64,000 nucleotides of DNA from Cyclobacteriaceae bacterium (GTDB taxonomy: Bacteria > Bacteroidota > Bacteroidia > Cytophagales > Cyclobacteriaceae). Positions 12,957-24,769 of this stretch are shown here, piece by piece. The number at the start of each line of letters is the position of its first letter. The first letter of the stretch is position 1. The notes under the pieces are model-generated. The model was given only the letters and a program-made list of their open reading frames with translations, had not been told where the DNA came from and ran no database searches. The DNA is taken from contig JAEUUJ010000047.1 in the NCBI GenBank assembly GCA_016786495.1, positions 1-64,000 of the forward strand, read 5' to 3'. The translations under genes were made by a program, and so were the position numbers.

Positions 12957-14315
12957 ATGGCAAGGAAGTTACTTTTACAGCACGAAAACGTTCCGGGTAT
13001 TAACACCTTTGAGGTGTACCGGAAGAATGGTGGCTATGCGTCAGTGGAAAAAGCATTGAAGAGCATGACCCCCGATGAAGTAATGGAAGAGGTGAAGAAA
13101 TCGGGACTCCGCGGTCGCGGTGGTGCGGGTTTCCCCGCCGGTATGAAGTGGAGCTTCCTCGATCGCAAGTCAGAGAAGCCGCGTTACCTCGTGTGCAATG
13201 CCGATGAAAGTGAGCCTGGCACATTTAAAGACAGATACTTAATGGAAAAAATCCCTCACTTGTTAATTGAGGGGATGATCACATCAAGCTATTCGCTGGG
13301 TGCGAACACGTCATACATCTACGTACGGGGTGAGTACATGTACGTTATCCGCATTCTCGAAAAAGCAATTGAAGAAGCTTACGCAGCCGGGTTCCTCGGT
13401 AAAAACATTTTAGGTACAAACTACTCGCTCGACTTGTTTGTGCAGCCGGGCGCGGGTGCTTACATCTGCGGTGAAGAAACTGCATTGCTTGAATCGTTGG
13501 AAGGAAAGCGCGGCAATCCGCGTTTGAAGCCGCCATTCCCGGCAATCGCGGGTTTGTATGCGTCACCAACCGTTGTTAATAACGTAGAGACGATCGCAGC
13601 GGTGGTTCCGATTGTGAACCAGGGTGGTGATGAGTACGCGAAAATCGGCATCGGCAAAAGCACCGGTACCAAACTCATCAGCGCCAGCGGACATATCAAT
13701 AAGCCGGGTGTATATGAGATCGAACTTGGTTTGCCGGTGGAAGAGTTTATTTACTCCGAAGAATATTGTGGTGGTATCTGGAAAGGAAGAAAGATGAAGG
13801 CCGTGGTAGCCGGAGGTTCTTCCGTTCCCATTCTTCCAACCGATTTGATCCTGAAGACAGCCAAAGGTGAGCAACGCCTGATGACGTACGAGTCACTTTC
13901 CGATGGTGGTTTTGTAAGCGGAACCATGTTAGGATCAGGCGGATTTATCGTGTTGGATGAAACAGCGTGTATCGTTCAGCATTTGCACACATTCGCGCGA
14001 TTCTATCACCACGAGTCATGCGGCCAATGCAGCCCTTGTCGTGAAGGTACCGGCTGGATGGAGAAAGTAATTCACCGGATTGAGCACGGTCACGGCCATC
14101 AGGGCGACATCGATCTTTTGGTTGATGTAGCGAAGAAAATTGAAGGCAATACAATCTGCCCGTTAGGAGACGCTGCGGCATGGCCGGTAGCAAGTGCGAT
14201 CCGTCATTTCCGCGAAGAGTTTGAATATCATATTAAGTACCCTGAGAAAGTGAAAAACCCGAAGCACTTCGAACTTGAGCCGTTTGTTTCGGAAAAGTCA
14301 CTTGTCACTGCTTAG
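12957..14315 (+). CDS. nuoF: NADH-quinone oxidoreductase subunit F
   Basis: 51-kDa-type subunit that binds NADH, FMN and cluster N3. It has 452 residues from the ATG at 12957, one base after the nuoE stop; the longer open frame from 12891 lies inside nuoE. The glycine-rich nucleotide loop GLRGRGGAGFPAGMKW, the FMN-region CNADESEPGTFKDR, and the [4Fe-4S] motif ESCGQCSPCREG with the fourth ligand in NTICPLGD are all visible. The TAG stop lies in the left arm of an inverted repeat that brackets the following S23 gene, so the last residues may have been set by that insertion. Confidence 0.97.
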   Translation: MARKLLLQHENVPGINTFEVYRKNGGYASVEKALKSMTPDEVMEEVKKSGLRGRGGAGFPAGMKWSFLDRKSEKPRYLVCNADESEPGTFKDRYLMEKIPHLLIEGMITSSYSLGANTSYIYVRGEYMYVIRILEKAIEEAYAAGFLGKNILGTNYSLDLFVQPGAGAYICGEETALLESLEGKRGNPRLKPPFPAIAGLYASPTVVNNVETIAAVVPIVNQGGDEYAKIGIGKSTGTKLISASGHINKPGVYEIELGLPVEEFIYSEEYCGGIWKGRKMKAVVAGGSSVPILPTDLILKTAKGEQRLMTYESLSDGGFVSGTMLGSGGFIVLDETACIVQHLHTFARFYHHESCGQCSPCREGTGWMEKVIHRIEHGHGHQGDIDLLVDVAKKIEGNTICPLGDAAAWPVASAIRHFREEFEYHIKYPEKVKNPKHFELEPFVSEKSLVTA

Positions 14316-14347
14316 TCGTTAATGGTTAATGGTTATTAGTTAATCGT
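14312..14347. repeat. Left inverted arm of the S23 element
   Basis: Thirty-six bases beginning TTAGTCGTTAAT and ending GTTATTAGTTAATCGT, with an internal 7-base tandem duplication (GGTTAAT). Ignoring that duplication, it pairs with the right arm at 27 of 29 positions. It includes the nuoF stop codon and ends 2 bases before the S23 gene start. Confidence 0.85.
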
Positions 14348-14349
14348 AG

Positions 14350-14763
14350 ATGAAGACCTTTGAAGAATTAGATTGTTGGAAAAGAGCAAATACGTTGAGA
14401 GTTAACCTTTCAACGCTTGTCAAGTCTTTTCCTTCAGAGGAGAGGTTTCGATTAACAGACCAGATTATCAGGGCTTCAAGATCCGTAACTGCCAACATTG
14501 CGGAAGGTTATGGAAGATTTCACTATCAGGAGTATACTCAGTTTTGCAGGCAAAGCAGAGGATCCTTGTATGAATTGATGGACCACCTAATTGTGGCTGC
14601 TGATGAACGATATATTACAGGCGAACAATTGAATGATTATAAACAACAAATCAGCGATTGTCTCGCTGTATTAAATGGTTTTATCAATTATTTGAAGAAA
14701 GCGAAGCTTCAAAACAGTGTAAATGAACCTGAAGAGCGGTATCATTTAACGATTAACAAATAA
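14350..14763 (+). CDS. Four helix bundle protein (S23/IVS-encoded family)
   Basis: Protein of 137 residues of the family first described from open reading frames in 23S rRNA intervening sequences. Family landmarks are FEELDCWKRAN at the start, FPSEERFRLTDQIIRAS, ANIAEGYGR near residues 53-61 and the SRGSLYELMDHL helix. The biochemical function is not established; members form a pentameric helical bundle with a basic face and RNA binding has been suggested. It sits between nuoF and nuoG and would be transcribed with the operon. Its last five codons lie in the right inverted arm, which suggests the gene and its arms move together. Confidence 0.9.
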   Translation: MKTFEELDCWKRANTLRVNLSTLVKSFPSEERFRLTDQIIRASRSVTANIAEGYGRFHYQEYTQFCRQSRGSLYELMDHLIVAADERYITGEQLNDYKQQISDCLAVLNGFINYLKKAKLQNSVNEPEERYHLTINK

Positions 14764-14777
14764 CGATTAACGACTAA
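14749..14777. repeat. Right inverted arm of the S23 element
   Basis: Reverse complement of the left arm at 27 of 29 positions; read on the minus strand from 14777 it begins TTAGTCGTTAATCGTTATTT. It spans the last codons of the S23 gene and ends with the first base of the nuoG start codon. Confidence 0.85.
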
Positions 14778-15781
14778 TGGCAAAAGTAACGATAGATGGC
14801 ATTGAGATCGAAGTTCCGGATGGCACTTCCATTTTGAATGCTGCCCGGATGATCGGCGGTGACGTAGTCCCGCCTGCAATGTGTTACTACTCATCCCTGA
14901 AAGAAACAGGCGGGAAGTGTCGCGTGTGTCTGGTTAAGGTAACACAGGGTTCTGCAAAAGATCCCCGCCCCATGCCGAAGCTTGTTGCTTCGTGCCGTAC
15001 CAATGTGATGGACGGAATGGTGGTGCAAAACATTACTTCTCCCGAAGTGCTGGAAGCGCGCAAAGGCGTTGTGGAGTTCCTGCTGATCAATCACCCGCTT
15101 GACTGCCCGATTTGTGACCAGGCTGGTGAATGCGATTTGCAGAACCTCGCGTATGAGCATGGCGCAGCAAAAACACGCTACGAAGAAGACCGCAGAACGT
15201 TCGAGAAGATCGACATTGGTGATAAGATCAAGCTGCACATGAACCGTTGCATTTTGTGTTATCGCTGTACGTTTGTGGCCGATCAGCTTACCAACAACCG
15301 CGTTCATGGCGTGTTGAACCGGGGTGATCACTCCGAGATTAGCACGTATATTGAAAAGGCTGTTGACAACGACTTCTCCGGCAACATGATTGATGTATGT
15401 CCGGTGGGGGCGTTAACCGATAAAACATTCCGCTTCAAGCAGCGTGTGTGGTTTACGAATCCGATGGATGCACACCGCGATTGTCCGAAATGTTCAGGTA
15501 AAGTTGTGCTGTGGATGAAAGGCGAAGAAGTTCTTCGTGTAACCGCCCGCAAAGATCAGTACGCTGAGGTGAAGGAGTTTATTTGCAACGAATGCCGGTA
15601 CGATCATAAAGACATTACGCACTGGACGGTTGAAGGTCCGCGCCACATCGACCGCGGTTCGGTTATCTCGCAGAACCATTACGAGCGAATCGATCTTCAG
15701 AAATTGAAAAAAGAAGTTGAACGCCAGCTCGAATTCCAGAAAGGGAAACCGCTGCCGGAGCCTAACTCATTGAACGCATGA
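14777..15781 (+). CDS. nuoG: NADH-quinone oxidoreductase subunit G, short form
   Basis: Iron-sulfur subunit of the peripheral arm, 334 residues. It has an N-terminal [2Fe-2S] ferredoxin domain (AMCYYSSLKETGGKCRVC, with a further Cys in VASCRTN), the NuoG-type motif NHPLDCPICDQAGECDLQ, and further cysteines (CILCYRC, DVCPVGAL, DCPKC, ICNEC). The large C-terminal molybdopterin-oxidoreductase domain of E. coli NuoG (about 900 residues) is absent. The end is genuine because the stop overlaps the nuoH start by 4 bases. Short NuoG proteins are usual in Bacteroidota as far as I know. Confidence 0.93.
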   Translation: MAKVTIDGIEIEVPDGTSILNAARMIGGDVVPPAMCYYSSLKETGGKCRVCLVKVTQGSAKDPRPMPKLVASCRTNVMDGMVVQNITSPEVLEARKGVVEFLLINHPLDCPICDQAGECDLQNLAYEHGAAKTRYEEDRRTFEKIDIGDKIKLHMNRCILCYRCTFVADQLTNNRVHGVLNRGDHSEISTYIEKAVDNDFSGNMIDVCPVGALTDKTFRFKQRVWFTNPMDAHRDCPKCSGKVVLWMKGEEVLRVTARKDQYAEVKEFICNECRYDHKDITHWTVEGPRHIDRGSVISQNHYERIDLQKLKKEVERQLEFQKGKPLPEPNSLNA

Positions 15782-24702: not shown

Positions 24703-24706
24703 TTCC

Positions 24707-24760
24707 GGATTTAGAATTTCGAATAACGAGTACCAGGTCGAAATCCGAAATTCTAAAACC
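24707..24760. repeat. AT-rich inverted repeat between convergent genes
   Basis: GGATTTAGAATTTCG at 24707-24721 is complementary, with a one-base offset near the end, to CGAAATTCTAAAACC at 24746-24760. It lies between the 3' ends of the MBL-fold gene and the cyclophilin gene. The GAATTTCGAAT wording resembles the AT-rich tails of the tandem array at 1-366. It could serve as a bidirectional terminator, but a clear T-run is lacking. Confidence 0.6.
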
Positions 24761-24769
24761 CGAAATCAA

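Follow-up and report, generated by a model that had tools for sequence, protein, structure and literature searches.

The 64,000-nucleotide stretch of DNA analysed here (the window) comprises positions 1 to 64,000 of contig JAEUUJ010000047.1 (handle C79) of a Cyclobacteriaceae bacterium, assembly GCA_016786495.1, whose genome (handle G000) measures 4.0 Mb in 90 contigs. Between the complex I genes nuoF and nuoG, it contains a gene of the S23 family, the family of proteins associated with intervening sequences (IVSs) of 23S rRNA, enclosed by two complementary arms made of 7-nt units. We propose, with a probability of about 60%, that this unit is an IVS-like mobile element of operon junctions, which spreads horizontally and whose stem would hide the start codons of both the S23 gene and nuoG. 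The features of the locus are the following, all on the + strand:

12957–14315, +: nuoF (Pfam Complex1_51K and NADH_4Fe-4S), to the end of the open reading frame (ORF); its stop codon TAG, at 14313–14315, lies within the left arm
14309–14353, +: 5' side of the predicted RNA stem, forming 40 pairs with 14742–14788 and including the S23 AUG
14312–14347, +: left arm, about five degenerate heptads, recognized from the letters, the inverted-repeat pairing and a 7-periodic tract
14350–14763, +: S23 gene (four-helix bundle, 137 aa; PF05635, TIGR02436)
14742–14788, +: 3' side of the predicted RNA stem, including the nuoG AUG
14746–14777, +: right arm, complementary to the left arm and holding the S23 stop codon; its last base is the A of the nuoG ATG
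14777–15781, +: nuoG, short form, 334 aa (Pfam Fer4_Nqo3 and NADH-G_4Fe-4S_3)

The S23 protein was found to be a clear member of its family, with 107.8 bits (E 4e-31) against PF05635 (23S_rRNA_IVP; curated cut-off 33.8) and 102.5 bits against TIGR02436 (cut-off 24). The sole solved structure matched by its sequence is 2gsc (E 4.3e-14). Its gene lies on the same strand as nuoF and nuoG and terminates 13 nt upstream of the nuoG start. With regard to the arms, 84% of 32 ungapped positions are paired between 14312–14343 and 14746–14777, and pairing rises to 27 of 29 positions once a single 7-nt unit is omitted from the left arm, as read from the letters. By eye, both arms consist of about five degenerate units, TTAGTCG TTAATGG TTAATGG TTATTAG TTAATCG and their complements. 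A preliminary description of this DNA had reported the 137-residue gene, the pairing at 27 of 29 positions, the nuoF stop within the left arm and a right arm ending at the first base of nuoG, and all of this was reproduced. It had also reported a 7-base duplication in the left arm; the extra unit is indeed present, but it is no accident of that arm, as heptads build both.

The nuo arms rank first among the 13 inverted repeats detected in 464 kb of the genome (the window and 20 stretches of 20 kb; exact 9-nt seed, score of at least 26, spacing of at most 700 nt). Their duplex energy is -32.1 kcal/mol, compared with -9.9 ± 2.9 in 500 shuffles, the lowest of which reached -20.3. When the 491-nt RNA from 14300 to 14790 was folded, a value of -143.4 was obtained, against -106.5 ± 6.4 in dinucleotide shuffles (z -5.75), none of 100 being as low. 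The nuoG AUG has a predicted unpaired probability of 0.00–0.02 in this RNA, which contains both arms, and of 0.77–0.88 in the RNA from 14550 to 14790, from which the left arm is absent.

The nuoF|nuoG junction is a recurrent home of the element, with patchy occupancy. The nuoF–nuoG spacer measures 12 nt in G008, whose NuoG is 99% identical to the query, and 11 nt in G031 (91%), and S23 is absent from both. These empty junctions bear out the earlier claim of a clean insertion that leaves both frames intact. Presence of the gene at this site in all relatives had been named as unfavourable to a mobile element, and this is not what was found. G011 carries the same S23 gene with near-identical arms, and an S23 gene at 69% identity occupies the junction in a Chryseolinea metagenome-assembled genome (MAG) and in a Flammeovirgaceae MAG, both with arms of the GTTA type described below. 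The insert is found at this junction in four genomes in all, our own and three others; in the remaining genus members searched, NuoG matches were absent or distant only (33–37%). In the Chryseolinea MAG (L273), the arms are enlarged to about eight heptads on the left and about 15 on the right, the right arm being partly translated as the S23 tail.

Complex I is not the sole host operon, such inserts being found in many operons, often core ones. Among the matches listed, S23 genes occurred in 49 of 59 genomes (our own included) and in none of 14 control genomes. The class was analysed on 73 loci from a longer match list, in genomes that are mostly drafts or MAGs. These loci hold 78 S23 ORFs, among them fragments and some elements that two overlapping loci have in common (L048/L096, L052/L092, L082), and both neighbours lie on the same strand as the S23 ORF in 66 of the 78. 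As neighbouring genes share a strand in 247 of 387 cases in the sample of our own genome, about a third (~32%) would be expected under strand-blind insertion. Leaving out elements with short proteins or without two codirectional neighbours, 65 codirectional elements are spread over 23 distinct junctions. The neighbours identified by profile include MurD and FtsW, SufB and SufC, GrpE and DnaJ, CysD, thiolase, MraZ and an MraW-family methylase (RsmH), and the methionine synthase parts S-methyl_trans and Pterin_bind; another junction joins FtsW to a family-28 glycosyltransferase, read as MurG. The murD|ftsW element is present in two of the 16 genus genomes with the locus (G000 and G011), and a 4-nt overlap between murD and ftsW is seen in 13 of the 14 others. 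A second set of 49 loci, which repeats one element of the first (L272, the G011 copy) and includes two nuoF|nuoG relatives, gave 39 of 52 S23 ORFs codirectional with both neighbours. An rRNA context was considered for the 15 loci without two codirectional neighbours and rejected, with 0 Rfam matches.

Two observations concern individual junctions of this class. In G000 and G011 (L112 and L113, compared with L114), the coding sequence of murD runs into the left arm of the S23 element, which specifies a C-terminal tail of the protein. In L071, L086, L091, L095 and L106, S23 elements lie between homocysteine-methyltransferase and pterin-binding ORFs of methionine synthase, which were identified by profile in L095 only.

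The complementarity of the arms is a property of the class. An arm score was calculated by comparing each left flank with the reverse complement of the right flank, and flanks of different elements served as cross pairs; leaving out ORFs that lacked enough flank reduced the first set from 78 to 75 and the second from 52 to 50. In the first set, the median score was 28, against 15 for cross pairs, with 58 of 75 elements at or above the 95th percentile of the cross pairs and 29 at or above the 99th. A score of at least 26 was reached by 47 of the 75, compared with 1.1% of 743 ordinary genes. The best repeat period of the flanks was 7 nt in 60 of 75 elements and 8 nt in 12, whereas period 7 was best in only 4 of 75 S23 cores and 89 of 743 ordinary genes. 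The second set gives a weaker version of the same picture: 24 of 50 elements lie at or above the 95th percentile, 19 at or above the 99th, and period 7 was best in 26. Tracts of period 7 flank the S23 gene on either side in 69 elements, and four to five heptads were counted in the left arm of 40 of these and in the right arm of 35.

The arm units follow the S23 clade. For this analysis, as for that of tract lengths, proteins shorter than 90 aa and repeated proteins were dropped. Across 118 elements in 41 neighbour clusters, arm similarity was 18.25 for the 263 pairs that share at least 55% S23 identity and lie at different junctions, against 13.87 ± 0.25 in 200 permutations, whose maximum was 14.67. 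GTTA at 7-nt spacing was found in 19 of 27 members of the nuo S23 cluster and in 4 of 94 others (19 of 42 and 4 of 79 under a looser clade definition). Other clusters exhibit other units, namely TTCA (5 of 5 and 1 of 116 others), AGAC (6 of 10 and 0 of 111), AGAA (6 of 9 and 2 of 112) and AGTC (7 of 13 and 2 of 108); each cluster tetramer is the best of 256, which makes the single figures optimistic and lessens their weight. The GTTA type also occurs in a Thermodesulfovibrionia genome bin (L278). A marked fall in complementarity was obtained for the two largest groups when right arms were shuffled within a junction (p 5e-5 in each case, the lowest value that the test could give).

The S23 gene was found to be less diverged than its surroundings. 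Between G000 and G011, the number of synonymous substitutions per synonymous site (dS) is 0.15 for the nuoF|nuoG S23 gene (11 of 83 sites), whereas dS is never below 0.31, with a median of 1.18, in 26 further genes within the same 34 kb. Identity is 0.97 in S23 and 0.86–0.91 further out in nuoF and nuoG. The conserved tract stops 7 nt into the end of nuoF and about 40 nt into nuoG, with the closest clusters of differences at -41 relative to the S23 start and +54 relative to its stop. The murD|ftsW S23 gene (dS 0.10, neighbours 1.07 and 0.38) and that of the thiolase junction (0.12, neighbours 0.66 and 0.37) behave similarly, and their conserved tracts extend tens of nt past the unit on at least one side, which resembles a short co-conversion tract. 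In other genomes, values of 0.19 against 1.48 and 1.88, and of 0.15 against 1.27 and 1.71, were obtained. Leaving out pairs with a nonsynonymous rate (dN) above 0.2 in S23, S23 has a lower dS than either neighbour in 24 of the 41 remaining ortholog pairs, which share genomes and are not independent. Synonymous sites are saturated in some other S23 pairs, and a general codon constraint on S23 is therefore not the cause. It looks as if related species acquire the element at one and the same junction, in the fashion of a homing intron. As to the protein, dN/dS is 0.02 for the nuoF|nuoG gene against the G011 copy and 0.03–0.19 in nine further ortholog pairs, which indicates that S23 is kept functional by purifying selection and is in use. 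The patchy presence, the lower divergence than the flanks and the arms travelling with S23 clades speak for the mobility that the preliminary description had proposed.

The closest known systems are the rRNA IVSs, described here after the accessible part of PMC4990558. The IVS of Coxiella 23S rRNA comprises 428 nt, with a 28-bp complementary stem and an S23 ORF in sense in the loop; tandem heptamers (GACAGAT) lie just upstream of the S23 ATG, in two or three sets depending on the strain, RNase III cuts in the stem and the S23 ORF is under reductive evolution. IVSs with an S23 ORF are also known from Leptospira, Xanthomonas and Brucella, with a patchy distribution for which horizontal transfer is suspected, the Xanthomonas S23 structure is a homopentamer, and the function and origin of these IVSs, which had been discovered over 25 years earlier, were still described as unclear (PMC4990558). 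The nuo element shares with them the S23 ORF in sense to the host transcript, the long, predicted stem from complementary ends around that ORF, and the heptamers. In contrast to them, it lies outside rRNA, at a stop/start junction of a protein operon; its heptads are on both arms, and its S23 gene is under strong purifying selection. RNase III cleavage was demonstrated for the Coxiella IVS and is postulated for the nuo element. The earlier suggestion of an mRNA counterpart of rRNA IVSs holds as a resemblance of anatomy, the Coxiella heptamers included (PMC4990558); the element appears IVS-like and is not classed as a 23S IVS because it lies outside rRNA, between nuoF and nuoG.

Two other heptamer systems offer partial parallels. 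The P6b stem of the Nostoc tRNA-Leu group I intron consists of complementary 7-nt repeats of the interchangeable classes TDNGATT or NNTGAGT, and is similar to the nuo element in its paired heptads and in that the repeat class can swap; unlike it, it is part of a group I intron, with no protein gene in the accessible description (PMC4476775). TAACTGA repeats, known from marine Beggiatoaceae, some Cyanobacteria and Bacteroidetes, are likewise intergenic tandem heptamers beside start codons, but comprise one heptamer type, mostly in direct orientation, and the accessible part of the source mentions neither 23S, S23 nor intervening sequences (PMC4679880).

Several other identities were considered and rejected. 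An Rfam scan of the window gave no family at gathering score, and thus no catalytic RNA of a group I or group II intron with a homing gene. None of the PADLOC families matched at E 0.1, which argues against an anti-phage defence gene. The S23 protein shows weak profile similarity to Avd, the accessory protein of diversity-generating retroelements, with 20 bits against NF033474 (E 0.00065), far below the cut-off of 80. Avd and S23 presumably share a superfamily.

The reading proposed at the outset draws on computed support from the anatomy, the empty sites, the class, the heptads, the clade linkage, the low divergence and the purifying selection; from these we infer a stem that forms in vivo, a translational relay, RNase III cleavage, S23–arm binding and a mechanism of insertion. 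A heptad arm, an S23 gene and a complementary heptad arm would insert as one unit between the stop of one gene and the start of the next codirectional gene. The unit would spread horizontally and be tolerated because the upstream gene receives a stop codon from the arms or retains its own, and the start codon downstream remains untouched. A stem of about 40 pairs between the two arms is predicted for the nuo mRNA; it would bury the S23 and nuoG start codons, and ribosomes finishing nuoF and then translating S23 could open it and hand over to nuoG. RNase III may cut this stem and split the transcript. As IVS excision leaves rRNA in pieces, the nuo mRNA would in that case be fragmented and not spliced, giving a nuoF part and a nuoG part that are not rejoined; rRNA fragments are held together in the ribosome, whereas a cut mRNA would be divided. 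S23 most likely binds the heptad arms, since arm units and S23 clade go together. The intervening and mobile interpretation of the preliminary description is partly supported.

Several observations weigh against this reading. The nuoG of G008 is as close to that of G000 as is that of G011, which makes loss in G008 possible, and a comparison by eye with this genome, whose spacer is too diverged for a firm reading, revealed no target-site duplication. No transposase is visible in the unit, which is filled by the S23 ORF. The nuo S23 protein is near neutral (isoelectric point 7.7), and RNA binding is not clear from it. Low S23 dS was not observed in 17 of the 41 ortholog pairs, and S23 dS is higher in all three mraZ|rsmH pairs. 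With regard to the arms, 26 of the 50 second-set elements do not reach the 95th percentile of cross pairs, the tracts of the left and right arms are uncorrelated in length (rho 0.04), and no clear tetramer emerged for four of the nine clusters displayed. Co-variation of the arms is clear in two of six junction groups, the four small ones being not significant, and a per-junction Wilcoxon test gave p 0.055. Finally, the predicted stem spans about 400 nt and would have to form during translation.

A bolder version, which we hold only tentatively and consider rather doubtful, is that S23 rings read tandem heptads in a sequence-specific manner, each clade its own in the two arms that flank its gene, that the unit is a self-spreading, homing-like element targeting operon stop/start junctions, and that rRNA IVSs are its ribosomal branch. 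The prevalence of arms with four to five heptads and the homopentameric Xanthomonas S23 described in the accessible part of PMC4990558 are suggestive in this respect. Such a heptad reader would represent a class of mobile elements without transposase or ribozyme, possibly moving via excised RNA. If the same unit lives in the mRNA junctions of core operons (nuoF|nuoG, murD|ftsW, mraZ|rsmH, sufB|sufC, grpE|dnaJ), rRNA would be only one of its homes, and the binding target of S23, RNase III cutting and movement would become testable in ordinary operons. This would also account for many genes for a 'four helix bundle protein' within Bacteroidota operons. No description of operon-junction S23 elements turned up in literature titles and abstract openings, a search that left subscription journals mostly uncovered.

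Among the alternatives, the one that survives best, although we regard it as unlikely, is a transposable unit at the DNA level, in which the arms are terminal inverted repeats for an unknown recombinase acting in trans, S23 is cargo or accessory, and RNA pairing is irrelevant. The empty sites, the varied junctions and a low divergence that ends near the arms are in line with this explanation. So are gene-less hairpins at the thiolase junction, which resemble non-autonomous copies. In this genus, the junction holds S23 elements with differing heptads in G000/G011, G009/G012 and G001; among the 11 genomes without S23 there, six exhibit a hairpin beyond all 30 shuffles (G008, G003, G014, G007, G016 and G002), with quite different units in G007, G006 is marginal (16 against a shuffle maximum of 14), and no hairpin was found at this junction in G010, G015, G013 and G004. 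The unrelated GxxExxY family (PF13366) is also armed, with flanks complementary at a score of at least 26 in 13 of 30 genes, 19 of 30 being codirectional. Terminal repeats within one transposon family are, however, normally fixed sequences, as in miniature inverted-repeat transposable elements. Here inverted arms are present, but their sequences differ between elements, each having its own heptads, alike mainly within S23 clades. The S23 ORF takes up the unit, in which no transposase is present, and the strand bias (66 of 78) is unexpected for strand-blind insertion, though selection against disruptive orientations could contribute to it.

Less probable than a transposable unit is that the arms are a mutational by-product of heptad slippage and template switching at imperfect palindromes, with a functionless pairing. 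Template switching can create and maintain hairpins, according to the accessible part of PMC8794818. The number of arm units does vary between orthologs, a 14-nt unit being present twice in L001 and once in L047, and the left and right tracts show no correlation in length. A by-product would leave unexplained both the linkage of heptad type and S23 clade across junctions and the clustering of heptads at S23 genes (60 of 75, against 89 of 743 ordinary genes), and the two arms are about 400 nt apart. More improbable again is a domesticated host regulator, in which S23 and the stem act as a standing post-transcriptional switch of NuoF/NuoG stoichiometry. The predicted occlusion of the nuoG start, the S23 dN/dS of 0.02 and the insert in four genomes could be explained in this way, but G008 and G031 keep nuoF|nuoG without the insert, and the same kind of insert occurs in unrelated operons. 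A chance repeat around an ordinary small gene of the operon would agree with strand and spacing but is already contradicted by the controls, namely the top rank of the repeat in 464 kb, the fold matched by 0 of 100 shuffles and the class-wide statistics, and retains next to no probability.

The preliminary description had also raised the possibility of further copies of the arms in the genome. A 14-nt heptad pair of the right-arm type (at most one mismatch) gave seven matches, three of which are the element itself; of the remainder, two lie in one hairpin on C80, one in a hairpin on C48 and one in an ORF. Further copies exist in this sense, but the arms of the other S23 genes differ, the three others of this genome having their own arms with different units. 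A repeat family of identical arms throughout the genome was ruled out in view of these few matches, the search covering only the 14-nt right-arm pattern. The two hairpins (L005, G000:C80:16116; L006, C48:45419) are gene-less, consist of GTTAATCG/GTTAATAG heptads of the nuo-arm type and lie between convergent ORFs. In sufB|sufC of G006, an 11-nt stretch with one mismatch amid heptad-like sequence is a possible remnant of S23 codons.

With regard to the GxxExxY genes, their best flank period was 9 in 7 of 30, 10 in 6 and 7 in only 2, and the idea that they belong to the same element was set aside on this last figure. In G014 and G001 (L312 and L039), a GxxExxY gene has as neighbours one NuoF-like gene and one with an N-terminus resembling NuoG, both named by reading the sequence; its flanks are complementary (score 32 in L312) and the tail of the upstream protein is encoded by the left arm. 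The sole PF13366 match of our own genome (L012, G000:C56:43078-43419) has a flank score of 30 and codirectional operon neighbours, a cysteine desulfurase-like gene, as read from the sequence, lying upstream and the next operon gene following.

Further gene-less hairpins were observed in other contexts. In G014, where a scan of 400 kb was dominated by other repeats, one region (L210, G014:C1:1360001-1380000) holds several near-identical gene-less heptad hairpins, one of them doubled, in seemingly repeated surroundings. The window itself contains a short hairpin at 24703–24764, with 22-nt arms of GAATTTC-like units and an 18-nt loop, between convergent genes.

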